Of a stretch of 64,000 bases of DNA, positions 2,653-64,000 are shown one piece after another. The position numbers and the translations under genes are program-made. The stretch's first letter is position 1; each line of letters begins with the position of its first letter. The notes beneath the pieces were generated by a model that worked only from the letters and a program-made list of their open reading frames with translations, ran no database searches and was not told the DNA's origin. Origin of the DNA: Bacteroidales bacterium (GTDB lineage: Bacteria > Bacteroidota > Bacteroidia > Bacteroidales > UBA3824); assembly GCA_017544805.1 (NCBI GenBank), contig JAFYDK010000013.1, forward strand, positions 1 to 64,000, given 5' to 3'.

Positions 2653-5600
2653 AAGTAGATAAAAAACCGCAAAAAAAACGCGGTAAATTAAGGCGGTGGA
2701 TAAAATTTATCGCCATTATTGCCGTGTTAATCAGTCTGTTACAATATGTCTGCTATTATTATGCTTTTCCTCTGTTGAAAGAAACTGTTTGCAAAACCAT
2801 AAATGTTTCTACTTCAGGACTTTATACAATGAATTTTGACGATTTTAAGATAAATTTTCTTACAAAAAGTCTTGAAGTAGAAAATTTCTCGCTTGTTCCC
2901 GATACGGCTGTTTATCTCAAACTTATCGATACTGCCGATTATAACAAAGCCGTTTATAATATTTCCGTCAAAAAACTTCAAGTTAAAAATATAAGTCTGT
3001 TTGCTTTTTTGCGTGATAGACTGAGAATCAATAAGATAATTCTTGATAATCCGAGAGTCAGCCTTGCTGCAAAACCTAAAAAAGAGGAAGGCAAAAAAAA
3101 GTATGATGCCGTTCATAAGGATTTGTTTCCGATTATAGAACCTTTTCTTAATGCGTTGATTATTAATTCTGTAACGATAACGGACGGATATTTTGACTTT
3201 AGCACCAAGGTCAAAAACGATAAAAGTAACATTGAGGTTGCAAAAATAGATTTGAACCTAAAAAAATTCTATCTTGACAAAGAGGCACATCAGAAGAGAG
3301 ATAAACTGTTTTTTTCACAAGTTATAGAATTAAATACCGAAAATTATAATATTATTTTAGCTGACAACGTTCATACGGTAAAAGCTGCGAAACTTTATAT
3401 AAATACTTCTGATTCATTGATTTATGCTCAAAATGCTCGTCTTTGTGCTGACGGTAAAAATTGTCAAAATACTCTTGCAAACAAATTTAATGTCTTGCTT
3501 GACAGCATCAAAATAACAGGTGCGGATTTGAGTGCGGCGTATTTTCAGAAAAATGTTAATTTAAAGACGGTTAAGATTTTTAATCCCGGTATTGAATTTT
3601 TGAAAGGCGGCGTTGTTAACAAAAAGACCCAAAAGTTTGAACAATTTTCTTCCGATTGGTTTCCTTTGATAAAGGGAATGTTGAAATCGGTTTCTGCCGA
3701 TAGTTTGAAAGTCGAAAACGCAAATCTTAAAATCGCTAAATCTTCTAAACCGCAAAAACCTGTCTATAAGGCAGATAATATTAATATACGTCTTGACGGC
3801 TTTTTGTTGGATTCTATGGCTTTTTCTAACAAGGAAAAAATTTTGTATTCAAAGGGTATTGAAATAAAACTTGCTGATTTTCAGATGGTTTTGCCGGATA
3901 ATAGACACAAATTGTTTTCTGGTGAGGTGCTTGTTAGTACCATTGATAAAACTCTTAAAGCCAAAAAGATAGTTATTCGTCCGACTTACAAAACCAATGA
4001 TTCTACGGCAAAGGAAATCAACATAAAAGTTCCGAGTGTGGAAATCATTGATTTTGATTTGATTAAGGGTTATAATCAAAAAAATTACGAAATGGGGATG
4101 GTGAAAGTTTCTTTGCCCGATATTGAAACCAAAAGTTTTATCGATACCGCTAAAACACCTGACAAAAGCAATCACCGTTTAATTGATGTTTTGTCTGATG
4201 AATTTTTTAAGATGTTGAAAATAAGAACTTTACTTATTAACAAAGGAAATATTAACATCACTTCAAAGGCAAGTATTAAGCAGGATAGTCTGACACTTTC
4301 GGGTAAACTTTCACTTAATATCAGCAATTTTATTATCAACAGAAAAACTCTTTCTGACGGGGGATTGCCTTTTATTACGACTAATGTTAATTTCAATATT
4401 CGTGACGCAGTGATGAAACTGCCGAAAAATTTTCATACCATGCGTTGCGCTGAGTTTTCTCTTAACTCTAAGAAAGACAAAGTGTTAATCGAAAAATTCT
4501 CGTTTAAGTACGATTCCGATACCATGCTTTTGTCTACGATGAAACGGTTGAAGAAAAGCTCTTCGCTTGATATTTCAATCGAAAAAGCTGAGTTCAATAA
4601 GTTTCAACTTTTGGATTTGTTTTTCAAACAAGAAATCAATTTGGAAAAACTTTTGGTACTAAAACCAAAATTTTATATCACCGTTTATCCTCAGTTAGCC
4701 GCCTTAAAAGAGGAAAGAAAACTTCTTGAAGATACGCTTCAAGAGGTTAGGGATAGTCTGCAAGATTCTGTTTATCAATTATATACTGTTTTTGATAAGA
4801 TTTTGGCGGATATGTTACCAAAAAGCATAAAATTTATTAAGACTGATACGCTTTTTTGTGATTCAAGTATTTTGAGTTTTGACTTTAGGGATACAACAAA
4901 CGGCGTTATTGCTTCTACGTCTTCGGATTTTAGGTTTTTGGCTGAGGGCTTTTATTTTAACCGCGATAGTTTTTCTAACGAAGAAAATTTTATGCTTGCC
5001 CAAAATTATGGTTTGGACATCAATAATTTTGAATTTTTGATGCCCGACAGAGCGCATTTAGTCAGAACATCTAATATAAATGTTTCAACCAAAGATAGTT
5101 GCATTAAAATAAAATCCGTTATGATTTCGGAGCGTCCGCACAGAAGATTTCCCGTTAAAAACGTTATGAATCTTTATTTGCCCGAAGTTGTAATTGATAA
5201 AATAGATTTCAAAACTTTCGGAAAAACGGGAATTTTGCCTGCCGGAAGTTTGTTTTTTGACAAAGCTGCTTTTATCCTCGCTAAAAATATTGATTTTAAG
5301 GAGGACAGTCTTAAAATGCCGCCGAAAACAGTTAGAAAGAAGAATATTCCTTTCAAAGGCGTTGCTTTTGATGAGGTTAGAAGCGAAAAATCGGGCTTTG
5401 CTTTTTATCGCGGAGGACTCAAAGATATGTTTAAAACTGAGGTTGCGAAGATGAATTTCGATATTAAACTCGAAAATTTCTCCCTTGACAGTGCTAATTT
5501 GAACAAAAATGGTTATGTCATGGATTTTGATAATCCGTTTCTTGATGTCAATAATTTTAGGTTTACGCTCAAGGATTCGTCCCAGATTTTGGTTGATAAT

Positions 5601-7079
5601 GTTAGGGAAATATCTGACAGTCTGAAAGTTAGAGGCTTTTTCTGGGGGTTCCCCGATAATCCTAAAAGGACTAAAGTAATAGGTCCTGAAATTCTTTTGA
5701 CCGATGTAAAATATCCCGATTTGATTTTTTCAAAAAAGATAATCGGTCGGTTTTTGGATATTAAAAGTCCGAGAATTGAGATTTTTCCTGGTAACAAGAA
5801 AACAGGTCTTGATAATGTTTTGTATAAAATGTTTAATACTATTGATTTTCAGGTTGATACCGTTACCTCGGATAATGTTTCGATGGATATAAATTTGCGC
5901 AACGGCAAACCGAAAGTCGAATTAAGAAACATGGATTTGAACATTTCAGAACTTAATACACAAAAATACCGTAGCCGTGATATTCCCGGCAAAACGGTTT
6001 TGGCAGGTATTACTGACCATACTTTTTACATGAAAGACAGCATTTTCCGTCTGAATTTCCCGCGTGCCGTTTTGGAGCCGAACAAAAAAACGGTTCAAAT
6101 AAAAAGTATGGATTTCCGTCCGTATACCAACCGTTATGATTTTTGTAAGGCGTTTGATGTTTCCCGCACCGCAACTTATATTTCTTGCGAAAATGCTTTA
6201 GCGAAAAATTTCGATTGGAAAACCGCAATCGAACACAAAACCCTCAACATGGATTCGCTTTATCTTAATAAACTTTCGTTTACAGCTTATATGGACAATT
6301 CTAAACCTAACGGCACGGAAATTCAGCCGACACTTCTTCAGTGGTTGGACAGAATACCGTTTTTTATTAACGTTAAGACTTCCAAAATTACGGATTCTTA
6401 TCTTGGAATTGAGCAGTTGAATCCGCTTGGTGCAGTGCCGGGAATTTTGACTTTCAATAATTTAAGCGGTTATATTTATGATCTTTCAAACGATCCGATG
6501 CAGATAGGAATAGATGATACATTAACTTTTTCGATGAAGGCGAAACTGATGAATGTTTCTGATATTTCCGGTTCGTTTCGTTATCCGAGAAATTCGCCCG
6601 TTGAGGAGTTTTATTGTAAAATCAAGGCAGATACCGTTTATTTGCCGTATCTTAATCCGTTTTTGGAAAATGCTTTGTTTGCTAAAATCAACGATGGAAT
6701 GTTGTACGGTGCTGACATCTCGTTCCGCTCCGACAACAAATCCTCCAAAGGCGTTACGAGGTTTGTTTACAGCGATTTGAAATTTGTTATCAACAAGGCT
6801 GACAGCGTTAAAGAGAAAAAACGCGGTCTTTTGTCGTTGATTGCAAATATTTTTGTTAAAAAGAAAAATACTAAAAAGCGCGGCTATATTTATGCCGAAC
6901 CCGATTATACGAGAGGTTTTTCGTCATATTGGGTAAAATCCATATTATCAGGCGTTAAGGCAACTTTTGGCTTTGAATCAAAAGAGCAAAAGGACGAAAG
7001 AAAACTCACAGAAAAAGTCCGTGATGCCATCACGCGCGGTAAGCAGAGAAAGAAACTTGAAAAAATTAATCAGGAATAA
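2628..7079 (+). CDS. Very large AsmA-like membrane-anchored protein
   Basis: 1483 residues from the ATG at 2628; a longer in-frame start at 2571 lies deeper inside the AmpG-like gene and adds only out-of-place residues. A basic N-terminus (KKPQKKRGKLRRW) is followed by one transmembrane helix at about residues 25-45, and the rest is a long periplasmic region of repeating beta-strand segments alternating with Lys/Asp-rich turns. This is the architecture of AsmA/TamB/DUF748-type bridge proteins, which are thought to carry lipids between membranes. The C-terminal 200 residues (LSFSMKAKLMNVSDISGSF and onward) look most like the AsmA C-terminal domain. The end is strongly basic. Family assignment is by shape rather than a signature motif. 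Confidence 0.65.
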   Translation: MAEEKTEIKVDKKPQKKRGKLRRWIKFIAIIAVLISLLQYVCYYYAFPLLKETVCKTINVSTSGLYTMNFDDFKINFLTKSLEVENFSLVPDTAVYLKLIDTADYNKAVYNISVKKLQVKNISLFAFLRDRLRINKIILDNPRVSLAAKPKKEEGKKKYDAVHKDLFPIIEPFLNALIINSVTITDGYFDFSTKVKNDKSNIEVAKIDLNLKKFYLDKEAHQKRDKLFFSQVIELNTENYNIILADNVHTVKAAKLYINTSDSLIYAQNARLCADGKNCQNTLANKFNVLLDSIKITGADLSAAYFQKNVNLKTVKIFNPGIEFLKGGVVNKKTQKFEQFSSDWFPLIKGMLKSVSADSLKVENANLKIAKSSKPQKPVYKADNINIRLDGFLLDSMAFSNKEKILYSKGIEIKLADFQMVLPDNRHKLFSGEVLVSTIDKTLKAKKIVIRPTYKTNDSTAKEINIKVPSVEIIDFDLIKGYNQKNYEMGMVKVSLPDIETKSFIDTAKTPDKSNHRLIDVLSDEFFKMLKIRTLLINKGNINITSKASIKQDSLTLSGKLSLNISNFIINRKTLSDGGLPFITTNVNFNIRDAVMKLPKNFHTMRCAEFSLNSKKDKVLIEKFSFKYDSDTMLLSTMKRLKKSSSLDISIEKAEFNKFQLLDLFFKQEINLEKLLVLKPKFYITVYPQLAALKEERKLLEDTLQEVRDSLQDSVYQLYTVFDKILADMLPKSIKFIKTDTLFCDSSILSFDFRDTTNGVIASTSSDFRFLAEGFYFNRDSFSNEENFMLAQNYGLDINNFEFLMPDRAHLVRTSNINVSTKDSCIKIKSVMISERPHRRFPVKNVMNLYLPEVVIDKIDFKTFGKTGILPAGSLFFDKAAFILAKNIDFKEDSLKMPPKTVRKKNIPFKGVAFDEVRSEKSGFAFYRGGLKDMFKTEVAKMNFDIKLENFSLDSANLNKNGYVMDFDNPFLDVNNFRFTLKDSSQILVDNVREISDSLKVRGFFWGFPDNPKRTKVIGPEILLTDVKYPDLIFSKKIIGRFLDIKSPRIEIFPGNKKTGLDNVLYKMFNTIDFQVDTVTSDNVSMDINLRNGKPKVELRNMDLNISELNTQKYRSRDIPGKTVLAGITDHTFYMKDSIFRLNFPRAVLEPNKKTVQIKSMDFRPYTNRYDFCKAFDVSRTATYISCENALAKNFDWKTAIEHKTLNMDSLYLNKLSFTAYMDNSKPNGTEIQPTLLQWLDRIPFFINVKTSKITDSYLGIEQLNPLGAVPGILTFNNLSGYIYDLSNDPMQIGIDDTLTFSMKAKLMNVSDISGSFRYPRNSPVEEFYCKIKADTVYLPYLNPFLENALFAKINDGMLYGADISFRSDNKSSKGVTRFVYSDLKFVINKADSVKEKKRGLLSLIANIFVKKKNTKKRGYIYAEPDYTRGFSSYWVKSILSGVKATFGFESKEQKDERKLTEKVRDAITRGKQRKKLEKINQE

Positions 7080-7082
7080 ATT

Positions 7083-8441
7083 ATGAAATATTTTTTTATC
7101 GGTATTGCCGGTGCCGGCATGAGTGCCGTTGCACAGTATTTAAAAGGTAAAGGTTCTTCAATTTCGGGTTCTGACCGTTTGTTTATGACCTCTAACGGGG
7201 ATTCTATTAAACAAAAACTCGAAAATCTTGATATAAAATGTTATCCGCAAGGCTCTGCCGTTATTGACAAAGACACTGATTTTGTGGTAGTTTCAACGGC
7301 GATTGAGGATACCGTTCCCGAATATGAATTTGCAAAGGAAAATTCTATCAAGGTAATTCACCGTTCTGACCTTTTGGCTCAGATATGTGATGAAAATTTT
7401 ACGATAGCGGTTTCCGGCACTTCGGGCAAATCGACTGTTACGGCAATGATTTTTGATATTTTGTCAAAGTGTCAAAAAGAGCCTTCTTTAATAACGGGTG
7501 CGGGGCTTATCTCGTTGCAAAACAAGGGTTTAATCGGAAACGCATACGTCGGAAAATCAAATATTTTGGTAATTGAGGTTGATGAATCGGACGGCACAAT
7601 CGTAAAATACTCTCCTCAAATCGGTCTTATTCTCAATATTGACAAAGACCACAAAGAGATTTCAGAGTTGATACCGCTTTTTGAAACTTTTAAGAGCCAT
7701 GTCAAAAAGCAATTAATTGTTAATCTTGATAACAAACTTTCAAGGCAGCTTGGCGGGGGCGGTTCGGATTTTTCGTGCTTGGATTCTTCGGCTGAAAATT
7801 ATGCTGAAAATTTTTCACAAAGTATTTCGGGAATAGTTTTTTATTCTGATAATCAGGAATTTACGCTCAATTTGCTTGGAAAGCACAACATGGAAAATGC
7901 TTTGGCTGCGATTTCTGTTGCGAGGATTTTTAACATTTCTGACAAAGAAATTTCCAAAGCTTTGTCTACTTATGAGGGCATTTATCGGCGCGGCAGAATT
8001 ATTTATAATAATGACGGAGTTTTGGTAATTGACGATTTTGCGCACAATCCAGCTAAAATATCGGCGGCCGTTTCTTCAGCTCAAGCGATAGGAGAGAGGG
8101 TGTTGGCATGGTTTCAGCCTCACGGGTTCAAACCGTCAAAACTTATGAAAGACGAATTGATTGAAAAACTTTCAAAACTTTTACGCAAAGATGACGTTAT
8201 GATATTTTCAAAGATTTTTTATGCCGGCGGTACGGCTGACAAAACTATAAGTGCTCAAGAGTTTGCTCTAGGTTTAACACAAAACGGTAAAAACTCATTG
8301 TACATTCAAGAGCGGGAGGATTTGCTTGAATATTTAAAAGAAAATGTCAGAAAAGGTGATGTCGTTTTGCTTATGGGTGCCCGTGATACCTCGTTAGGCG
8401 ATTTTGCTGAGGAGGTCAAAAATGCGGTTGCTAATCGTTAA
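7083..8441 (+). CDS. Mur ligase of the MurC/Mpl type (probable murein-peptide recycling ligase)
   Basis: 452 residues with the three Mur domains: an N-terminal Rossmann start (FIGIAGAGMSAVA, residues 5-17), the ATP loop GTSGKST (112-118), the central LNIDKDHKE, and the C-terminal DFAHNPAKI. MurC joins L-Ala to UDP-MurNAc; Mpl instead rejoins recovered tripeptide. Here the normal MurC text around the C-terminal domain is replaced by WFQPHGFKPSK and FYAGGT, seen in a MurC-like branch distinct from the essential MurC of division clusters. Placement three bases after the AsmA-like gene and with AmpG-like and SpoIID-like genes favours recycling (Mpl-type). Substrate is inferred from context. Confidence 0.8.
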   Translation: MKYFFIGIAGAGMSAVAQYLKGKGSSISGSDRLFMTSNGDSIKQKLENLDIKCYPQGSAVIDKDTDFVVVSTAIEDTVPEYEFAKENSIKVIHRSDLLAQICDENFTIAVSGTSGKSTVTAMIFDILSKCQKEPSLITGAGLISLQNKGLIGNAYVGKSNILVIEVDESDGTIVKYSPQIGLILNIDKDHKEISELIPLFETFKSHVKKQLIVNLDNKLSRQLGGGGSDFSCLDSSAENYAENFSQSISGIVFYSDNQEFTLNLLGKHNMENALAAISVARIFNISDKEISKALSTYEGIYRRGRIIYNNDGVLVIDDFAHNPAKISAAVSSAQAIGERVLAWFQPHGFKPSKLMKDELIEKLSKLLRKDDVMIFSKIFYAGGTADKTISAQEFALGLTQNGKNSLYIQEREDLLEYLKENVRKGDVVLLMGARDTSLGDFAEEVKNAVANR

Positions 8442-55860: not shown

Positions 55861-56928
55861 TTATTTCGTGTTAAGAATAGCCTTTTCGATATAATCGCCG
55901 ACTTCTTTCGTGCCGTATGCTTTACCTTCAGCGATGTCTTCTGTGCGGATACCGTCAAGGAGAGCTTTGTTTACGGCATCAGTAACGATTTGAGCCTCTT
56001 CTTTCAAACCGAATCCTGTTTCCAAAAGCATAGCAGCCGAAAGAATTGCAGCCATCGGGTTAGCGATGTTTTTGCCTGCCGCTTGAGGATATGAGCCGTG
56101 AATAGGTTCAAAGAGTGATGTGTAAACACCGATTGACGCACTCGGCATCAAGCCCATACTTCCGGTGATAACAGAAGCCTCGTCCGTTAAAATGTCGCCG
56201 AAAGTGTTTTCTGTTACCATAACGTCGAAATCTTTCGGTGTCGTAACAATTCTCATTGAGGCATTATCTACAAACATATATGAAGTTTCTACTTCGGGAT
56301 AATCTTTACTGATTCTCTGAGCTGTTTCCCTCCATAGTCTTGAAGATGCCAAAACGTTTGCCTTATCAACAACTAAAAGTTTTTTTCTGCGTTTCAAAGA
56401 AAGTTCGTAAGCGCATTTCAAAATTCTTTCAATCTCATAAACCGAATAAAGGTTTGTATCGAAAGCTGATTTGCCGTCTTCCGTGCGGCCTTTCATGCCG
56501 AAATACATTCCGCCGGTAAGTTCCCTTACTACAACGAAATCTGCACCGTCAACGATTTCTTTTTTTATCGGTGATTTGTGGATAAGGGCAGGAAAAGTAT
56601 AAATAGGACGGATATTAGCAAAAAGTTCAAGGCGTTTTCTGATAGCTAAAAGTCCTTGTTCGGGACGAACTTTTGCGTTCGGGTCGTTATCGTATTTAGG
56701 AGAACCGAATGCACCGAAAAGTACTGCATCAGATTTTTTACAAATATCAACCGTTTCATCGGGCATCGGATTGCCGCAGGCGTCAATCGCTGCTGCTCCG
56801 CCCAATACCGGAACGTATGTGAATTTATGACCTCTGATTTTTTCTATTGCCTGAAGTGCTTTTTGCGCTTCAGCAATTACCTCGGGACCTATGCCGTCGC
56901 CAGGTAACACTGCTATTTGTTTGTTCAT
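55861..56928 (-). CDS. leuB: 3-isopropylmalate dehydrogenase
   Basis: 355 residues. The isocitrate/isopropylmalate dehydrogenase start [20 protein letters not shown], the substrate-binding [28 protein letters not shown] and [17 protein letters not shown], and the C-terminal [20 protein letters not shown] are intact. It oxidises and decarboxylates 3-isopropylmalate with NAD in leucine synthesis. Its promoter is the left copy of a 43-bp direct repeat whose other copy drives the module-3 lipoprotein. No other leu gene is in the window. Confidence 0.96.
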
Positions 56929-56952
56929 TTTCGTATTAGAATTTGAAATATT

Positions 56953-56995
56953 ATTTTGCGCAAATTTAATTATAAAAATCTATTTTTCAAAGTTT
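56953..56995. repeat. 43-bp direct repeat, left copy (contains the leuB promoter)
   Basis: Perfectly identical to 59014-59056 over 43 bases, while flanking bases differ. The two copies bracket module 3 (2.0 kb between them). Confidence 0.95.
56961..56991 (-). promoter_or_regulatory. leuB promoter
   Basis: On the minus strand, TTTG (56988-56991), a 19-base spacer and TAAATTTG (56961-56968) match the Bacteroidota consensus exactly, 32 bases before the leuB start codon. Confidence 0.8.
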
Positions 56996-56997
56996 TT

Positions 56998-57750
56998 TTA
57001 TTCGCAAATTATTCTGGGTGGTTTTATTTCCGGACAAGGTGATTGTTCTCCGCATTGGTATTGAGAAAACCAATCAGCCAAAAAGTCTTGCGCCCATGGT
57101 CCGTATTCTGAGTCAAAAGTTAAAAATTCCTCGACTTTATCAGTTTTTGATGTTATTTTGTACATTTTATTAATGGCGTGATATATTATATATATATTCC
57201 CGTCGTAACCGTAAAACATATCGTTATATACAAAATATAATGATTTACTATTATAATTAGAATATAGTATATTAATATTTTCGTAATCGGGAGTACCGTT
57301 AATAATATTAACAGACATGACTTCTATTAAATTTCTGAGATCTTTTGTTTCTGTTTTACAGAAGTAGTATATTTTACTATTATCACGGGAAATTATGGAA
57401 TTAAGGATGTATGTATATGCAACCTCTTGGCGTGCATGAAGTATTAGTTCACTTTTCCTTACAAAATTACCTGTTTGCCTGTCAAAATCGCCGTAGCAAA
57501 CAATACTGTCGTATAGAAAATTAGCAGTATAATGTTTACAATCGCTTGATAAATGTATTTTTATATCGTGATTATTGGGATTGTTAATTTTTCTGTCAAT
57601 ATTAATAATCTCCTTAAACTCAACGCCTGAATTTGTTATCAGATATTTGTATATAATATCACTATCGTAAAATATCAGCCAAATATCGTTGCAATTGGAA
57701 TGATGCACTAAAATCCGATCAAATAAGAAAAAATTCTTTTCATTATTCAA
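56998..57750 (-). CDS. Second part of frameshifted beta-propeller-like protein B3
   Basis: 250 residues open from an internal ATG at 57750, but the gene really begins at 58163. Adding one A to the A10 tract at 57780-57789 (minus strand) joins the two frames into one 388-residue protein; KKK then reads on as IVEKVHSLNEL into NNEKNFF. The joined product aligns along its length with B2 (DIWLIFYDSDIIYKYLITNS against DKLWFITQENNKQFFTSYLI). It ends in a Cys/Pro-rich tail (QYQCGEQSPCPEIKPP) like that of B1. Whether this half is translated is unknown. Confidence 0.75.
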   Translation of the reverse strand: MNNEKNFFLFDRILVHHSNCNDIWLIFYDSDIIYKYLITNSGVEFKEIINIDRKINNPNNHDIKIHLSSDCKHYTANFLYDSIVCYGDFDRQTGNFVRKSELILHARQEVAYTYILNSIISRDNSKIYYFCKTETKDLRNLIEVMSVNIINGTPDYENINILYSNYNSKSLYFVYNDMFYGYDGNIYIIYHAINKMYKITSKTDKVEEFLTFDSEYGPWAQDFLADWFSQYQCGEQSPCPEIKPPRIICE

Positions 57751-57776
57751 TTCGTTTAATGAATGAACTTTTTCAA

Positions 57777-58163
57777 CTATTTTTTTTTTATTATATCAAT
57801 TAGTACATATTGTTTACCTCTAAATAAATAAACCATTTTATTATCTATAGGTGAAGGTACGAAAAATGTATTGTTGTGATCTTTAAATATATTATTTAGA
57901 TCTTCTATTTGTTCATTATTTCCGTCGTATAATATATCAAATTTTTCTATCAATTGAATTTTTCCGTCGGAATCAGTGTATAAGTGAGAACAGAATATGT
58001 CATCTTTTGCTTCGGGTTTTACAGGTTTTTTATTAAAATCAATAATATAATTACCTATACTCCAAATCGAAACGTGTTTGGATTGTGCAAATGTATATTG
58101 AAAAAAAATATTGAGGATTATAAAAATCCCCAATATTTTAAATATTAATCTTCTTCTTCCCAT
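57777..58163 (-). CDS. First part of frameshifted beta-propeller-like protein B3
   Basis: 128 residues with a signal peptide (ending QYTFAQ) and the family start SIWSIGNYIIDFNK, followed by DGKIQLIEKFDILYDGN and FFVPSPIDNKMVYLFRGKQY, which match B2 (DKDGNIIFQSENN; FVALDPINHNRYYIFYSD). The frame ends at TAG directly after an A10 tract, too early for a complete propeller. The start codon overlaps the end of the A3 lipoprotein gene by 19 bases. As it stands the product would be a short secreted fragment. Confidence 0.8.
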   Translation of the reverse strand: MGRRRLIFKILGIFIILNIFFQYTFAQSKHVSIWSIGNYIIDFNKKPVKPEAKDDIFCSHLYTDSDGKIQLIEKFDILYDGNNEQIEDLNNIFKDHNNTFFVPSPIDNKMVYLFRGKQYVLIDIIKKK

Positions 58164-58987
58164 TGTTCTAAAGTTAAGGTTCTCATTAAACGTATTCTAC
58201 AAAGTTCATTGGGATTATTTGATATATATAATGTCATTTTCCAATCCCTATTATCAATGCCAGGTAACATTACGGACATACCATATTTTTCTGTATTTTC
58301 ATGTTTATACACGTCTGCGTCAATCCACATTCTTTTAGTCAGAGTTTCTTCTCCTTCCATTTTTTGACAATAATTATAAAAATCTAAGTCCTTTTTGAAC
58401 ATATTGAATTGTAATTCATAATCTGCATCTGCGGGATCTGTATACATTGAATACAAATCATTAAAATCTTTTTCTGTAGGCAATCTAAATCCTTTTGCTT
58501 TCATATTATCGGGCAATCTGTAATGTCTTATATTAGTTTTAGATTTAGCAATTGGAAAATCCTCCGGCTTCATTTTATTTAAATCAACATCCCATTTGTA
58601 GAAATAGCCGTATTTCGTACCTTCCGGATCAAGTCCGCATATCGTATATCCATTTATGCAATTACTATGTAAATATTCAACAAACCATTCTTGAATAATT
58701 TTCGTATCAGCACTCATTAATTTTAGGGTTTTATATGTACATCCTCCTTTTCCATTACGGTCATAAAAAAAAACAGAACTTTCTTCGGCATAATGCATTT
58801 TTTTAGATACACATTTCCTTGTTGTGTCAAAGTTTAAGTATCTGACAATACTATCACAAGATGTTGTGGATTCGATACTATTATTAAATAAATTTGTTTC
58901 TGTGTCAATTTCTCTTTGACACGCAGTACCATACAGCATCGCAGATATAAATATTGCGAATGCTAAAAAAATACAAGTTTTTTTCAT
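58145..58987 (-). CDS. FISUMP-like lipoprotein A3
   Basis: 280 residues. The lipoprotein signal ends LYGTA-C (lipid Cys-23). The mature part has the fib_succ_major (FISUMP) pattern: GYFYKWDVDLNKMKPEDFP, then KGFRLPTEKDFNDLYSMYT, and a C-terminal CRIRLMRTL, which in paralogues reads SVRYVF. FISUMP domains occur in many exported proteins of Bacteroidota and Fibrobacter; their role is not settled. It is the first gene of module 3, driven by a promoter identical to that of leuB, and overlaps B3 by 19 bases. Confidence 0.85.
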   Translation of the reverse strand: MKKTCIFLAFAIFISAMLYGTACQREIDTETNLFNNSIESTTSCDSIVRYLNFDTTRKCVSKKMHYAEESSVFFYDRNGKGGCTYKTLKLMSADTKIIQEWFVEYLHSNCINGYTICGLDPEGTKYGYFYKWDVDLNKMKPEDFPIAKSKTNIRHYRLPDNMKAKGFRLPTEKDFNDLYSMYTDPADADYELQFNMFKKDLDFYNYCQKMEGEETLTKRMWIDADVYKHENTEKYGMSVMLPGIDNRDWKMTLYISNNPNELCRIRLMRTLTLEQWEEED

Positions 58988-59013
58988 TATATTTGGGTAT
59001 TAAATTAATAATA

Positions 59014-59056
59014 ATTTTGCGCAAATTTAATTATAAAAATCTATTTTTCAAAGTTT
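59014..59056. repeat. 43-bp direct repeat, right copy (promoter of A3)
   Basis: Identical to 56953-56995. It lies between the B2 stop codon (14 bases away) and the A3 start codon. Confidence 0.95.
59022..59052 (-). promoter_or_regulatory. Promoter of the A3-B3 module
   Basis: TTTG (59049-59052), a 19-base spacer and TAAATTTG (59022-59029) on the minus strand; the same bases as the leuB promoter, 34 bases before the A3 start codon. Confidence 0.78.
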
Positions 59057-59069
59057 AAATTAGAAAAAG

Positions 59070-60443
59070 TTAATCCTTTTCGTACAACTTTGGCTGACGG
59101 ATTGTGTTGCGGATTGTAATCTCTTTTTCTAAACTTTTGGTTTCTTCGTCTGAAAAAACGATATCAAGTTTTACCTTATAAGTTCCGTCTTTTTGATATG
59201 TATGCTTAGGATTTTTATCATTAGAAAATGTCCCGTCTCCGAAATCCCACTTTAAACTCTTATAGTTGTATCCTCGGTAGTAAAAATTAGTTCCTATACA
59301 CCCTTCTGTTTGGTATAGAAAATTAGGAGACATGCGCAGAAAACGCGGAAATATTGATATTCCATTAAACTTTTTGGGAACTTCCAGCGCATTAAAATGA
59401 AAAATAGGATTCTCTGAATCACAATTTTCTATTTTAGAAATATATCTGTTATCCTCTCCGCAAAGTAAATAAATATTACCGTTTGAAGATAACTTCATAT
59501 CTGCAATAGCAATATCATTCCAATTTGCAGGTATTTCCTTTTCATATATTTTTTTGCACAAAATTTTCCCTTCTAATAGTTCAGAAGCATTATAACGAAA
59601 AACAGATATTTTGTTTATCCCGTTTTCTTTCGTTTTGAGGGCTGTAAACAAATATTTTCCTGAAGGAGAAAACTCAAAAACATTACACTTTACATCAATA
59701 GGTAATTCAATATAATCGCTTAAAATGCCGGAGATATTATCAAACCCGTAACTTACAATTTTACGATTTTGGAGTATAAAAATTCTATCAAATTCCGGTG
59801 ATATGCGCAAAAACGTTGTCGGAGTAAAAATATGATTTTCATTATAGGGTGATTCAACCTCTCTTATGATTTCACCGTCAGAAATTAAATAACTTGTAAA
59901 GAATTGTTTATTATTTTCTTGTGTAATGAACCACAATTTATCAAACTCATTATTCGGCATAATGCAAAGAAAGTAGTGAGAATTTATACCATTCTTTTGG
60001 GTAATATTTTTGATTTTTTTCTCCTCAACGGAAATAATACCGTCTTTATATGTTACTATATTGTAACTTAAAATAAGACTATTTCCATGAACGGTACTAC
60101 TATTAAGGTCGGAATAAAAAATATAATAGCGGTTGTGATTTATAGGATCTAATGCAACAAATGAATTTGCCCTAAAATAATTATTTTCAGACTGAAAAAT
60201 AATATTTCCGTCTTTATCATAAATTAATCCCGCCAATCCGTAAAAAATAATATTTCCGTCTTTGTCAGAAACTGAATATCTCCCAAAATTCCCAATAACA
60301 GACGGTATATTAATTTGATGAAATTTTTCATTCTCCGAATCAAATATTAAATTGTTGTTCCCTATCGTCCAATTATTAAATTCCTTTTGGGCATAAGAAC
60401 AAATAGATAACAACAATAAGACTATAGAAAACAACAATTTCAT
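59070..60443 (-). CDS. Secreted beta-propeller plus PKD-domain protein B2
   Basis: 457 residues with a signal peptide (ending SICSYAQ). The N-terminal NNWTIGNNNLIFDSENEKF and SVSDKDGNIIFYGLAGLIYD belong to the propeller-like region found at the start of many Bacteroidota PKD proteins; later blades are FEFSPSGKYLFTAL and ADMKLSSNGNIYLLCGED. The C-terminus adds a PKD domain (SLKWDFGDGTFSNDKNPKHT; GTYKVKLDIVF) absent from B1 and B3. It is the only complete long B protein, eight bases after A2. No type IX secretion tail is visible. Confidence 0.88.
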   Translation of the reverse strand: MKLLFSIVLLLLSICSYAQKEFNNWTIGNNNLIFDSENEKFHQINIPSVIGNFGRYSVSDKDGNIIFYGLAGLIYDKDGNIIFQSENNYFRANSFVALDPINHNRYYIFYSDLNSSTVHGNSLILSYNIVTYKDGIISVEEKKIKNITQKNGINSHYFLCIMPNNEFDKLWFITQENNKQFFTSYLISDGEIIREVESPYNENHIFTPTTFLRISPEFDRIFILQNRKIVSYGFDNISGILSDYIELPIDVKCNVFEFSPSGKYLFTALKTKENGINKISVFRYNASELLEGKILCKKIYEKEIPANWNDIAIADMKLSSNGNIYLLCGEDNRYISKIENCDSENPIFHFNALEVPKKFNGISIFPRFLRMSPNFLYQTEGCIGTNFYYRGYNYKSLKWDFGDGTFSNDKNPKHTYQKDGTYKVKLDIVFSDEETKSLEKEITIRNTIRQPKLYEKD

Positions 60444-60451
60444 ATTAAGTT

Positions 60452-61425
60452 CTATTTTACACGTATATATATAGGGTCAAAAACATAACGAACAGAAAAA
60501 CCATAACTTTTGGAATAACTGCCGAAATATGCTCTGTAATCATATATTTCTTCAGTATCAAACCATACATATCTCCGCTGGATTATGAAAGGAGAATTGC
60601 CGGTTTTGTTTGTCTTACCTGCAGTCCAAAAAGTTCCTCTATTATTTAAATCCGCATAAATACCGTTTATATAATAATCCGATGGTTTTTCTGAATATGC
60701 AGTATTTCTCCAACCACCCAATGTATGATATGTAGATTCATCATCACTGCAACCATCTTCAATACCTGCAATAAAGGCATCAAAATAAAATTCATCTGAG
60801 AATTCTCTATTGTACGTTAAATCATACGCTCTTTCATCAACATAATTAGGAAATTCACCCGTAATTTCAAGAATGTCTAAAAAATCTCGAAGTTCCGGTA
60901 ATCTTCCGGAAACAGAAAATTTTTTACCGGGATATACCTCCGTTATAGAATCTGATTTATACATAGGAACTCTCATTTTTATTTTGCTGCTAAGTTTATC
61001 GGCTGTTTCCCAATTATATAATCTGCCATAAACGGGTACGTTTTTTTCATCATCAGCAAACACCCAGCAACCGTCATTAGATTTTATACTCAAATTTTCC
61101 AACATTATATAGAAAAAACCTTTAGATGCTTTTCTATTAACTTTCATAACCAAATACTTAATAGATTTGTCATTAACATAATACGCCGTATCGGTTTCTA
61201 TGAAATCAGATAAATCAAAATCATACCCTTTAGACAGCTTCTTGTTCTGATTTTTACGAATGTAAAACTTCCATTCCATACGTTTTCCGTTAATTGTCAA
61301 AATGGAATCTGTTGATTGCTCAATAACCGATTGAGATATAGTTTCAGTCTCTTTTTCGCAAGAGTAAAGCGTGAAAGCGGCAACATAACTATTGCGGCTT
61401 TCAAAAGTATAAAATACTTTTTCAT
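60452..61425 (-). pseudogene. FISUMP-like lipoprotein A2, frameshifted in its signal peptide
   Basis: The start at 61425 (MKKYFILLKAAIVM) matches A1, but one A is missing from the GGCAAACAT stretch kept in A1 (here GGCAACAT near 61379-61386), so the frame ends after 42 residues. From about 61300 the FISUMP frame is open to 60452 (282 residues: RLYNWETADKLSSKIKMRVP, SGRLPELRDFLDIL, YGFSVRYVF). Restoring one base gives a 324-residue lipoprotein. Without it the protein would lack its signal unless a downstream start is used. Sequencing error is possible but not needed. Confidence 0.75.
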
Positions 61426-61510
61426 ATTATTAGTTATTTAATTAAAAATTCCGCTGTAAATATAATATGAAAAAAAATACAAAACAATAACCCTTTCGGG
61501 TAGTTTTTTT
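61265..61510. repeat. 246-bp direct repeat, copy at the 5' end of A2
   Basis: Aligned to 63375-63621 with four substitutions and one single-base indel (the A2 frameshift). It covers, on the minus strand, a small ACCC-GAAA-GGGT hairpin, the promoter region, start codon and about the first 53 codons. Sequence outside the block is clearly divergent. Confidence 0.92.
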
Positions 61511-61514
61511 TGTT

Positions 61515-62594
61515 TTAATCACAAACTTTAATTGATGGAGTCTTCATTTTGCAATATATCGCCATGTCATGAAATAATTGGTTCGGGCAATAACATTTCA
61601 TATTAGAATATTTGGAAGGAGGTATTTCTAATATTTTTTCCATATATACAATTTTATTATTTTCGGGATTTTTTATGCAATCAACTTTACCGTTATCTCT
61701 AATCAAATAAATATTACCATCTGCAGCTAATTTCATAGTTAAAAGATTATATTCGTAGTCATACGCAAACTCTTTTACAACTTCTGGGGAATTGTCTTTT
61801 TTAGAAACATCATATCTCAAAACCGTTGAACCGTTAAAAATAATCAAATATTTCCCCGATTCAGATACTGCAAAATCATAAACATTAGAACAAACAAGAC
61901 CACAGTTTATTAAATTAATATTCTCAAAATCAAAATTAAATTTAAAAACCTGTTTTTCTCTCAAATAATAATAATTTTCGTAACTATCTCTGCATAAGTG
62001 ATTATACTCTGTAAGCGAAATAGTTATTCCTGCATCACACACACCCCTTAAAATCATTTTGTCACCTTTTATTTCATAAATTTCTGCTTCACTGGTTTCA
62101 TAGAAAAATGATAAAACAAAAACTCTTTTGTTTTTATAATCAGGGATTGCCCAAATATTACTGATTCTCTTTTTTACAGAAATCTCACTTTTGCTCAAAA
62201 CGTAATTATCCTTATTAGATATATCAAAAATGATATGATATAATTTTGTGTCTTTTGATTCATAAAAACTATAAAAATAATGAAAAATATTCATATCTAA
62301 TATATCTTGCACCAAAATACCCGAACCGAAACGATATTTGTTATTCAAAAGGCAATTCATTTCCGCATCATATATTTTCCGCATTGAGCCGAACAAAATT
62401 AATTCTTCATTTCGATCACAAATACAAAAACCTCCTAAAGCAATATCAAAATTTTCAGGGAGTTGTAAAACTCCCTGAAAACCTATTTTATTAAACTTTA
62501 ATATATAATTTCTCGTAGGCCACCACTCAGCACCATATTGCGCATAGGATTTACTAAACACAAAAAGCAAGACGGCGAGTGAAAAAGTTTTCAT
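61515..62594 (-). CDS. Secreted beta-propeller-like protein B1
   Basis: 359 residues with a signal peptide (ending SKSYAQ). The start EWWPTRNYILKFNKIGFQG and CDRNEELILFGSMRKIYDAE correspond to the propeller start of B2; blade-like segments continue (DFAVSESGKYLIIFNGSTVL; LTMKLAADGNIYLIRDNG). It has no PKD domain and ends in a cysteine-containing tail (CYCPNQLFHDMAIYCKM). It starts nine bases after A1 and is intact. Confidence 0.85.
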   Translation of the reverse strand: MKTFSLAVLLFVFSKSYAQYGAEWWPTRNYILKFNKIGFQGVLQLPENFDIALGGFCICDRNEELILFGSMRKIYDAEMNCLLNNKYRFGSGILVQDILDMNIFHYFYSFYESKDTKLYHIIFDISNKDNYVLSKSEISVKKRISNIWAIPDYKNKRVFVLSFFYETSEAEIYEIKGDKMILRGVCDAGITISLTEYNHLCRDSYENYYYLREKQVFKFNFDFENINLINCGLVCSNVYDFAVSESGKYLIIFNGSTVLRYDVSKKDNSPEVVKEFAYDYEYNLLTMKLAADGNIYLIRDNGKVDCIKNPENNKIVYMEKILEIPPSKYSNMKCYCPNQLFHDMAIYCKMKTPSIKVCD

Positions 62595-62603
62595 AATAAA
62601 TAA

Positions 62604-63536
62604 TTAATTTTTTTTCTTATTTACATAACGTGGCTCAAAAACACAACGAATTGTATGTCCGAATGAATTTGCGGCCAGAGAATTTATAAATGCAGAATAA
62701 TTCAAAACATCAGTTTCAGTATGAGTTTCTTTTGCAAAACGGAATTCATAATGAGCTTTTTTAATGAAATCGACCCCGTCATCCATCCAATAATATCCTG
62801 CTTTATTAAGCCCTGTATAACCTCCGCCTCCTAATCTATTGCCACTCAATACCGAATGTCCTTTCGATAAATCGCCATCCGCATCCTCAACACCAAATAC
62901 GAAAGTGTCAAAATAGAATGAACCCCATTTTTCATAATCAGATTCTGCATGATATCCACATGTTGGTAAATTTCCGATAGTTTCTGCCTCAATAATATCC
63001 AAAACATCTTCAGTATTCAATAACCGTCCAGGAGTCCCAACACTCTTTGCTATAACATTACCGTCAGTATCATATACGGGTAATTTCATATTTATTTTTT
63101 TTGCTAACGCATGCCCCGAATTCCATGTATACATACGTCCATATTTGGATACATAACTTTCATCATTTTTGTAAGCCCAACATGCGGTGTCTAATTCTAT
63201 ATCAAGATTTTCTATCATAATATAAAAATACCTTTCTGAATTTCTTCTCCGTACTTTCATTGTTGTATAACGCTTAGAAGGATCTTGCGTGTAATAGGCA
63301 GTTCCAAATTCTAAGCCTAAGTCTGACGTATTCATGTGAAATCCTTTTGAAAGTTTATTTCCATTTTTCAAATTAAACTTCCATTCCATACGTTTCCCGT
63401 TAATTGTCAAAATGGAATCTGTTGATTGCTCAATAACCGATTGAGATACAGTTTCAGTCTCTTTTTCGCAAGAGTAAAGCGTGAAAGCGGCAAACATAAC
63501 TATTGCGGCTTTCAAAAGTATAAAATACTTTTTCAT
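62604..63536 (-). CDS. FISUMP-like lipoprotein A1
   Basis: 310 residues and the intact reference for this set. The signal ends TLYS-C (lipid Cys-23), followed by EKETETVSQSVIEQSTDS. The FISUMP pattern is YGRMYTWNSGHALAKKINMK, GTPGRLLNTEDVLDIIEAET and a C-terminal SFGHTIRCVFEPRYV. Its first 53 or so codons and upstream region are shared nearly identically with A2. It opens module 1 and is directly followed by B1. Confidence 0.88.
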   Translation of the reverse strand: MKKYFILLKAAIVMFAAFTLYSCEKETETVSQSVIEQSTDSILTINGKRMEWKFNLKNGNKLSKGFHMNTSDLGLEFGTAYYTQDPSKRYTTMKVRRRNSERYFYIMIENLDIELDTACWAYKNDESYVSKYGRMYTWNSGHALAKKINMKLPVYDTDGNVIAKSVGTPGRLLNTEDVLDIIEAETIGNLPTCGYHAESDYEKWGSFYFDTFVFGVEDADGDLSKGHSVLSGNRLGGGGYTGLNKAGYYWMDDGVDFIKKAHYEFRFAKETHTETDVLNYSAFINSLAANSFGHTIRCVFEPRYVNKKKN

Positions 63537-63621
63537 ATTATTAGTTATTTAATTAAAAATTTCGCTGTAAATATAATATGAAAAAAAATACAAAACAATA
63601 CCCCTTTCGGGTAGTTTTTTT
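63375..63621. repeat. 247-bp direct repeat, copy at the 5' end of A1
   Basis: Partner of 61265-61510; it retains the extra A that keeps the A1 signal peptide in frame. The hairpin TACCC-GAAAG-GGGTA at its upstream end lies just after the folate-enzyme gene and may terminate it. Confidence 0.92.
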
Positions 63622-63647
63622 AGTAAAAATTCAAAGTTTTTTATGGC

Positions 63648-64000
63648 TTAAAAAACAACATCGCTCATTTTTTCGTCGTGGGATTCCATCGGGAGAGCTT
63701 CTAAAAACTGAAACGGAAAACAAATTCCGATTTTTTTTGCGTGAGGAATCTTTTTTAAAAACTTGTCGTAATAGCCTTTCCCCCGTCCTAAACGGTTAAA
63801 ATTCTTGTCAAAAGCCATTCCCGGAATTATTGCAAGGTCTATTTTATAATAATCCTCCTCAAAAAAATCCTCTCCCGATGGCTCTAAAATGTTAAAAGCC
63901 CCTTTCTTTAAAGAATTTTCATCTTCGTAAACTTTTAGAACCATATCTTCTTTCGTAACTTTAGGCAACAAAATCATTTTACCAGAGAGTTTTCCTTTTA
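63648..64000 (-). CDS. 5-formyltetrahydrofolate cyclo-ligase (N-terminus beyond window)
   Basis: The open frame continues past the right edge (KGKLSGKM before the first internal Met), so the N-terminal third is missing. The family signature IPGMAFDKNFNRLGRGKGYY is present, followed by DKFLKKIPHAKKIGICF. The enzyme converts 5-formyl-THF to 5,10-methenyl-THF with ATP. It is upstream of module 1 on the same strand, separated by 111 bases containing a hairpin. Confidence 0.93.
   Translation of the reverse strand, partial: KGKLSGKMILLPKVTKEDMVLKVYEDENSLKKGAFNILEPSGEDFFEEDYYKIDLAIIPGMAFDKNFNRLGRGKGYYDKFLKKIPHAKKIGICFPFQFLEALPMESHDEKMSDVVF

Follow-up and report, generated by a model that had tools for sequence, protein, structure and literature searches.

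In the strings of esaG and tipC immunity genes of type VII secretion treated in PMC9484751, tandem non-identical paralogues share blocks of high similarity, including gene ends and intergenic DNA, and homologous recombination expands, deletes and chimerises the genes. We describe here an arrangement of this kind at the end of a 64,000-nucleotide stretch of DNA from an uncultured Bacteroidales bacterium (assembly GCA_017544805.1, contig JAFYDK010000013.1, positions 1 to 64,000; the window in what follows). Its units are two-gene modules, A-B, in which a lipoprotein gene, A, is followed by the gene of a secreted protein, B, and the first two A genes, A1 and A2, begin with a near-identical leader cassette. 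The esaG and tipC genes are small single immunity genes beside a toxin, whereas here the unit is a secreted two-gene module present at several loci, the homology block is an export leader, and no toxin was identified.

Conserved 5' untranslated and signal-peptide regions also run through the variable lipoprotein family vsp and vpma of Mycoplasma, where, in the account given in PMC2268961, a Xer1-type site-specific inversion brings a silent gene under the one promoter; in the present case, every copy comes with its own leader. Phase-variable inversion, as in vpma or at inverting Bacteroides promoters, was rejected for this locus: the repeats of 250 bp lie in direct orientation, and inspection by eye, no family search having been made, picked out no recombinase in the neighbouring genes. 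Genomes of 'Candidatus Ornithobacterium hominis' carry up to 17 genes each of PF09603 (Fib_succ_major, FISUMP), with a complement that varies between samples (PMC6421346). This is, distantly, the family of A, and its complement is also variable, but the section of that paper on the PF09603 genes mentions neither a partner gene nor a leader cassette, and gives no anatomy of recombination. Domains related to A, DUF1566 or Fib_succ_major, are found in targets of diversity-generating retroelements (DGRs), and structure 2Y3C is TvpA (PMC4159848); variation here appears to proceed instead by swapping whole bodies. A DGR was rejected as well, no template repeat matching A1 or A2 being found in the genome of the window, which is about 91% complete, and no reverse transcriptase beside A genes. 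The one reverse transcriptase found in this genome, judged by eye to be of group II intron type, lies on contig C36, where no A gene was found. Literature searches on FISUMP/Fib_succ_major, on surface-lipoprotein recombination and on lectin/propeller pairs brought up no description of the A-B pair in the portions of the literature that they reached.

The two copies of the cassette, of 250 bp at A1 and 249 bp at A2 when two repeat-search matches are taken together, differ by four substitutions and one single-base indel. An earlier note on this sequence had described such a block, with the same differences, as covering a hairpin, the promoter region, the start codon, the signal peptide and the start of the mature protein; alignment bears this out, with small corrections to the size, the upper end and the effect of the indel. 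The cassette contains a terminator-like hairpin, a 5' untranslated region (5'UTR), the signal peptide, the lipobox and a linker, and ends short of the folded domain. Beyond it the coding parts are clearly different, as the note had said: 368 of 751 aligned bases differ between the bodies of A1 and A2, against 5 of 247 counted columns in the cassette, one of them at its very edge (Fisher p about 6e-51), so that equal similarity along the whole of the two genes, the case that would have spoken against the note, is ruled out. For A2, the upper end of the cassette lies directly past the stop codon of B1; for A1, it lies a short way downstream of the 5-formyltetrahydrofolate cyclo-ligase gene (5-FCL). 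The leader ends near residue 54, and the confident fold of the A1 structure model starts near residue 70.

The hairpin element ACTACCCGAAAGGG has only two occurrences in the window with at most one mismatch allowed; since the start of the leader, folded as RNA, improves little or only moderately on shuffled sequences (z of -1.0, -2.3 and -1.4), we call it terminator-like only. A DNA search of the genome revealed no third full copy of the cassette, its three other matches being just 37-44 bp long. The indel is a frameshift in the signal peptide of A2: the frame of the ATG stops after 42 codons, and the frame of the body opens only within the mature part. A2 as assembled is thus without a leader, and the only intact export leader of the two in this assembly is that of A1. 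The suggestion that a common expression and export cassette is kept while the exposed part varies therefore stands for the constant cassette before different bodies, apparently homogenised by recombination; with the export leader of A2 broken, the cassette is not simply kept for function.

A sister genome, G005, is 95.6-96.6% identical at this locus to the genome of the window, G000, an assembly of 140 contigs. The order of the genes is kept in G005, except that a single A precedes B2, followed by A3-B3: there is one cassette, the body of A1 and B1 are absent, and the A gene joins an intact leader to the A2 body. The two flanking alignments of G005 to G000 overlap by exactly one cassette, and no B1-like sequence was found elsewhere in G005. 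This is the arrangement that the earlier note predicted for recombination between the copies, with the A2 body behind the upstream promoter and the A1 body and B1 gone.

The note also proposed looking for a conversion breakpoint near position 61265. Between G000 A2 and G005 there are zero differences over 455 bp (60813 to 61267), then 20 within the cassette; the step in divergence, at 61268, is at most 3 bp from the boundary of the homology between A1 and A2. Outside one patch, the A2 body and B2 show 6 differences in 1507 bp between the two genomes, and the cassette with the adjoining end of 5-FCL diverges by about 7%. The cassette shares the divergence of the 5-FCL side and the A2 body that of B2, which points to a recombination breakpoint at the junction of leader and body. 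Within the cassette, the two G000 copies are alike and G005 differs at 16 sites, the other two groupings being found at 3 and 2 sites. This agreement within G000, beside an A2 body identical to that of G005, is in these alignments the pattern of concerted evolution with a breakpoint.

The reading that we favour, with a probability of roughly 0.7, is that the leader is a homology anchor, and that homologous recombination through it removes, converts or exchanges A-B modules. A leader is common to neighbouring modules, as seen for A1 and A2. Because the leaders are near-identical and end just before the folded domain, recombination inside them, presumably of the RecA type, would have three outcomes: it could convert leaders; it could delete one A body together with its B, setting the next body behind the upstream promoter; or it could let A-B bodies pass between strains while the resident leader stays, the new body then presumably being expressed and anchored through that leader. 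Selection would act on the variation of the bodies. Under these outcomes, G005 may have lost A1-B1 or taken up A2-B2 behind its own leader; alternatively, A1-B1 may be a gain of G000. Of the recent gene conversion or duplication that the note had put forward, recombination is supported, but conversion, duplication and import of a module are indistinguishable with one close relative.

The other three A-B loci of G000, on contigs C67, C95 and C52, are all altered in G005. At C67, a B-A-B arrangement in G000, with B copies 89% identical, matches a single B in G005; this B is a mosaic, agreeing with the right-hand G000 copy at the majority of 149 informative sites and carrying patches of the left-hand one. 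At C95, the A gene of G005 keeps the leader and the C-terminal end, an in-frame internal deletion having reduced it to 69 amino acids, and the A gene of G000 has a stop near the C-terminus. At C52, only remnants are left in G005. The features of homologous recombination in esaG-like strings, namely shared blocks and gain or loss with breakpoints in the blocks, are present in the window and, as a mosaic, at C67, in comparison with one relative. In G006 and G008, one A-B islet is 99.2% identical between flanks of 84-87%, and the high identity extends about 200 bp into both neighbours, which is the mark of homologous exchange between species. The A genes of G008 contig C7 and G006 contig C79 have leaders that are 97% identical in protein, against 62% for the bodies; in DNA, the leaders show 2 differences in 120 bp (two 60-bp bins), with both sides clearly more diverged.

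Direct repeats of at least 50 bp and at least 85% identity, spaced by 1-3.5 kb, the scale of a module, were found at 10 of 18 A-B loci and at 0 of 23 control stretches (Fisher p 4e-5), the controls being hand-picked rather than random, 20 from contigs of the same genomes and 3 from the window. The count leaves out locus L043, which is the same as L021, and L096, which has B only. It includes three pairs at the same position in two genomes (L082/L083, L087/L095 and L088/L089, matched by DNA), so that the 18 loci are not all independent. Among the repeats counted are the 250 bp leader, a block of 69 bp before A3 and before leuB, one of 58 bp that surrounds the C95 module, and the 3' ends of B genes in G013.

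Several observations weigh against a leader-anchored recombination. The repeat threshold was chosen after the repeats had first been inspected, and 8 of the 18 loci have no such repeats. Those that exist vary in kind, being leaders, B 3' ends and, in one case, a sequence resembling a small inserted element; consequently, one mechanism need not explain all loci. The B gene of G005 at C67 is no clean hybrid of a single crossover. The collections searched hold a single close relative, and the event at this locus is neither polarised nor seen twice. A tree of the bodies neither supports nor rejects A1 and A2 as sisters (approximately unbiased test, p 0.20). A recent tandem duplication of an entire A-B module, after which diversifying selection drove the bodies apart very fast, would make conversion unneeded. 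The modules are indeed in tandem, with a clear recent tandem remnant, at 91-93%, on C79 of G006, and the tree does not reject A1 and A2 as sisters. However, in protein the bodies of A1 and A2 are 34% identical and the leaders of A1 and of the G005 A2 gene 87%, B1 and B2 are about 21% identical, and the leader accepts replacements between species. Moreover, the A2 body and B2 are nearly unchanged between G000 and G005, so that bodies are not seen evolving at the speed that a duplication would need, and we regard this history as unlikely. Functional constraint on promoter, leader peptide and lipobox might keep the cassette alike without recombination; the cassette holds exactly the parts for expression and export, and several other A leaders retain a DGKRMEWK-like motif. 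Yet G005 is about 7% different in the same segment, mostly by replacements: 9 codons are changed with respect to the A1 leader, 7 by replacement and 2 silently, so that constraint does not explain the likeness of the A1 and A2 leaders. The A2 leader is still 98% identical though its peptide is no longer encoded, and the other A leaders of G000 show no such identity in DNA, which makes constraint the least probable of the explanations considered.

The modules could also be moved by site-specific recombination or as a mobile cassette (an invertible promoter, an integron-like system or a small mobile element), the repeats being its sites. The repeats that border the A1-B1 and C95 modules contain a small hairpin-like stretch, and in G008 an insert of 242 bp with direct repeats of 33 bp stands beside a module. 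But the repeats of different loci have no strong match to each other, no recombinase was recognised by eye among the open reading frames around the 18 loci, where no recombinase family search was made, and the tract exchanged between G006 and G008 enters the neighbouring genes, as in homologous recombination; such a mechanism is improbable. There is finally the possibility of an artefact, either a G005 contig collapsed across the repeat or a G000 contig misjoined in it. G005 is apparently assembled from a metagenome, G000 is fragmented, and a 250 bp repeat exceeds a typical short read. The G000 copies, however, can be told apart by differences spread along the block, and the G005 cassette is a third, distinct sequence. 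The losses at C67, C95 and C52 are unlike a collapse of copies that are 89% identical, one of them leaving an in-frame remnant, and no B1-like sequence was found elsewhere in G005; we find an assembly error very improbable.

The leader as homology anchor can be taken further, in a conjecture that we hold to be possible but doubtful: A-B pairs would make up a recognition system whose members can be swapped, located at several chromosomal islets within a single uncultured genus of Bacteroidales, with the leader as a reusable docking site. Broken copies, such as A2 with its frameshifted leader and the C95 A gene with its late stop, would be a reserve, a silent lectin-like body being activated by crossing-over or conversion with the intact leader of a neighbour, and the single-A arrangement of G005 would be such a product. 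The lectin-like lipoprotein paralogues of Bacteroidota have no known role, and their complement differs between strains; a likely means of this variation is visible here. A short export leader would double as a recombination anchor, so that binding domains and a partner protein can be lost or imported with expression and export unchanged. The junctions of leader and body would then be a simple, testable marker of repertoire turnover in ruminant metagenomes, and an uncharacterised two-gene family, A-B, would be linked to surface diversification.

We now turn to the proteins. A1, A2 and A3 match FISUMP / Fib_succ_major (PF09603, TIGR02145) weakly: in Pfam, where the cut-off is 33.9 bits, A2 scores 25.6, and in NCBIfam, where it is 41.65, A2 scores 29.9 and A1 20.6. 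These scores are under the curated cut-offs, and A is therefore called FISUMP-like and not filed as a member; PF09603 is matched by 9 of 19 members of the A family at E up to 0.01. A sequence search of the PDB returned no relative of A at E up to 1. A structure model of A1, built from the alignment of the 19 members, has a mean pLDDT (predicted local distance difference test) of 77, with much of the body above 90, and is confident from about residue 70. Its structural alignments give a consistent top list, with Z scores of 8.6 for 2y3c, the Treponema variable protein TvpA, which we take to be a DGR product, 8.3 for Legionella Lcl, 8.1-5.3 for several C-type lectins and 5.2 for a Bacteroides fimbrial protein, scores that are only near the level at which chance arrangements appear. 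A Foldseek search with the same model yielded mostly adenovirus knobs at a template modelling score of about 0.13, which we treated as noise. A is thus predicted to be a lipoprotein with a C-type-lectin-like fold, distantly related to FISUMP. Acidic residues after the lipobox cysteine are a signal for the surface export of lipoproteins, and they are present in most of the 19 members; together with the lipobox and the fold, they suggest that A and B are surface exposed and ligand-binding.

By family and by fold, B2 is a secreted beta-propeller with a PKD domain: it scores 43.1 bits for PKD_4, whose cut-off is 27, and its best match in a structure search is 1l0q, a YVTN propeller with PKD (E 4e-15). 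A domain search found no PKD match in B1. Counted by eye, B comes directly after A for 19 of the 20 A genes of the 18 mapped loci; at L094, one lipoprotein gene stands between. A-type genes were found in 8 of the 18 genomes of the genus, a search at the level of the family added no genome outside these 18, and no relatives of A1 were found in named genomes or viral contigs.

Read on the minus strand, the end of the window has the order 5-FCL, A1, B1, A2, B2, A3, B3, leuB, with the coordinates given in the table.

Table. Features at the end of the window (positions are those of the 64,000-nucleotide stretch).
Feature	Position	Strand	Remarks
5-FCL, 3' part in window	63648..63977	-	conserved upstream neighbour; assigned to its family through the copy in G005
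Cassette copy 1 (A1): terminator-like hairpin, AT-rich promoter/5'UTR, ATG, signal peptide, lipobox Cys, linker to MEWKF	63375..63624	-	repeat search and alignment
Cassette copy 2 (A2); 4 substitutions and 1 deletion with respect to copy 1	61265..61513	-	repeat search and alignment
A1, lipoprotein of 310 aa; body from about residue 73, predicted C-type-lectin-like fold	62604..63536	-	
B1, secreted protein of 359 aa, propeller family, PKD match absent	61515..62594	-	
A2, FISUMP-like lipoprotein gene, leader frameshifted (one base missing near 61381)	60452..61425	-	intact version of 324 aa in G005
B2, secreted beta-propeller + PKD, 457 aa	59070..60443	-	
A3, divergent FISUMP-like lipoprotein	58145..58987	-	
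B3, in two parts because of a frameshift (57777-58163 and 56998-57750)	56998..58163	-	identical split in G005
Direct repeat 2, copy before A3 (69 bp, 88% to the copy before leuB)	58991..59056	-	
Direct repeat 2, copy before leuB	56927..56995	-	
Low-divergence tract in the comparison with G005 (A2 body and B2), ending at the cassette junction; one patch, 15 differences at 60746-60812	59239..61267	-	
leuB, conserved downstream neighbour	55861..56928	-	

The second pair of repeats brackets A3-B3 in the way that the cassettes bracket A1-B1, and it is present in G005 as well. Since G005 carries the identical split of B3, this frameshift is likely to be genuine and older rather than an error of a single assembly. 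An Rfam search of positions 56000-64000 matched no family, and PADLOC gave no defence-system match for A1, B1, B2 or A3. The nearest records of relatives of leuB are metagenome-assembled genomes, mostly from ruminants, and the genus is an uncultured Bacteroidales group. In a scan of named genomes for leuB, 13 of 80 kept loci were mapped (L097-L109), 10 of these 13 being compared by DNA too, and of the 13 only L097, apparently the locus of G005, has A-B genes beside leuB.

A few further observations concern the surroundings of other A-B modules. A repeat of about 150-170 bp on C95 of G000 (L018, 7062-7236) is matched at dozens of places in G005, in either orientation, and resembles a REPIN (a doublet of repetitive extragenic palindromes) or MITE (miniature inverted-repeat transposable element) family. 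The insert of G008 mentioned above (L088, 8261-8502) is upstream of the A gene and is absent from G006. In these same two genomes, at the single locus L082/L083, the block formed by A, B and a regulator is oppositely oriented relative to the left flank. LuxR-type regulators are found beside A-B modules at L082 (4742-5485), where the gene is inside the repeat-bracketed unit, at L085 (10171-10923) and at L020 (3865-4602). At L020, a run of small genes (4716-7258), one of them of the SiaC family by Pfam, lies beside the A-B module of C52.

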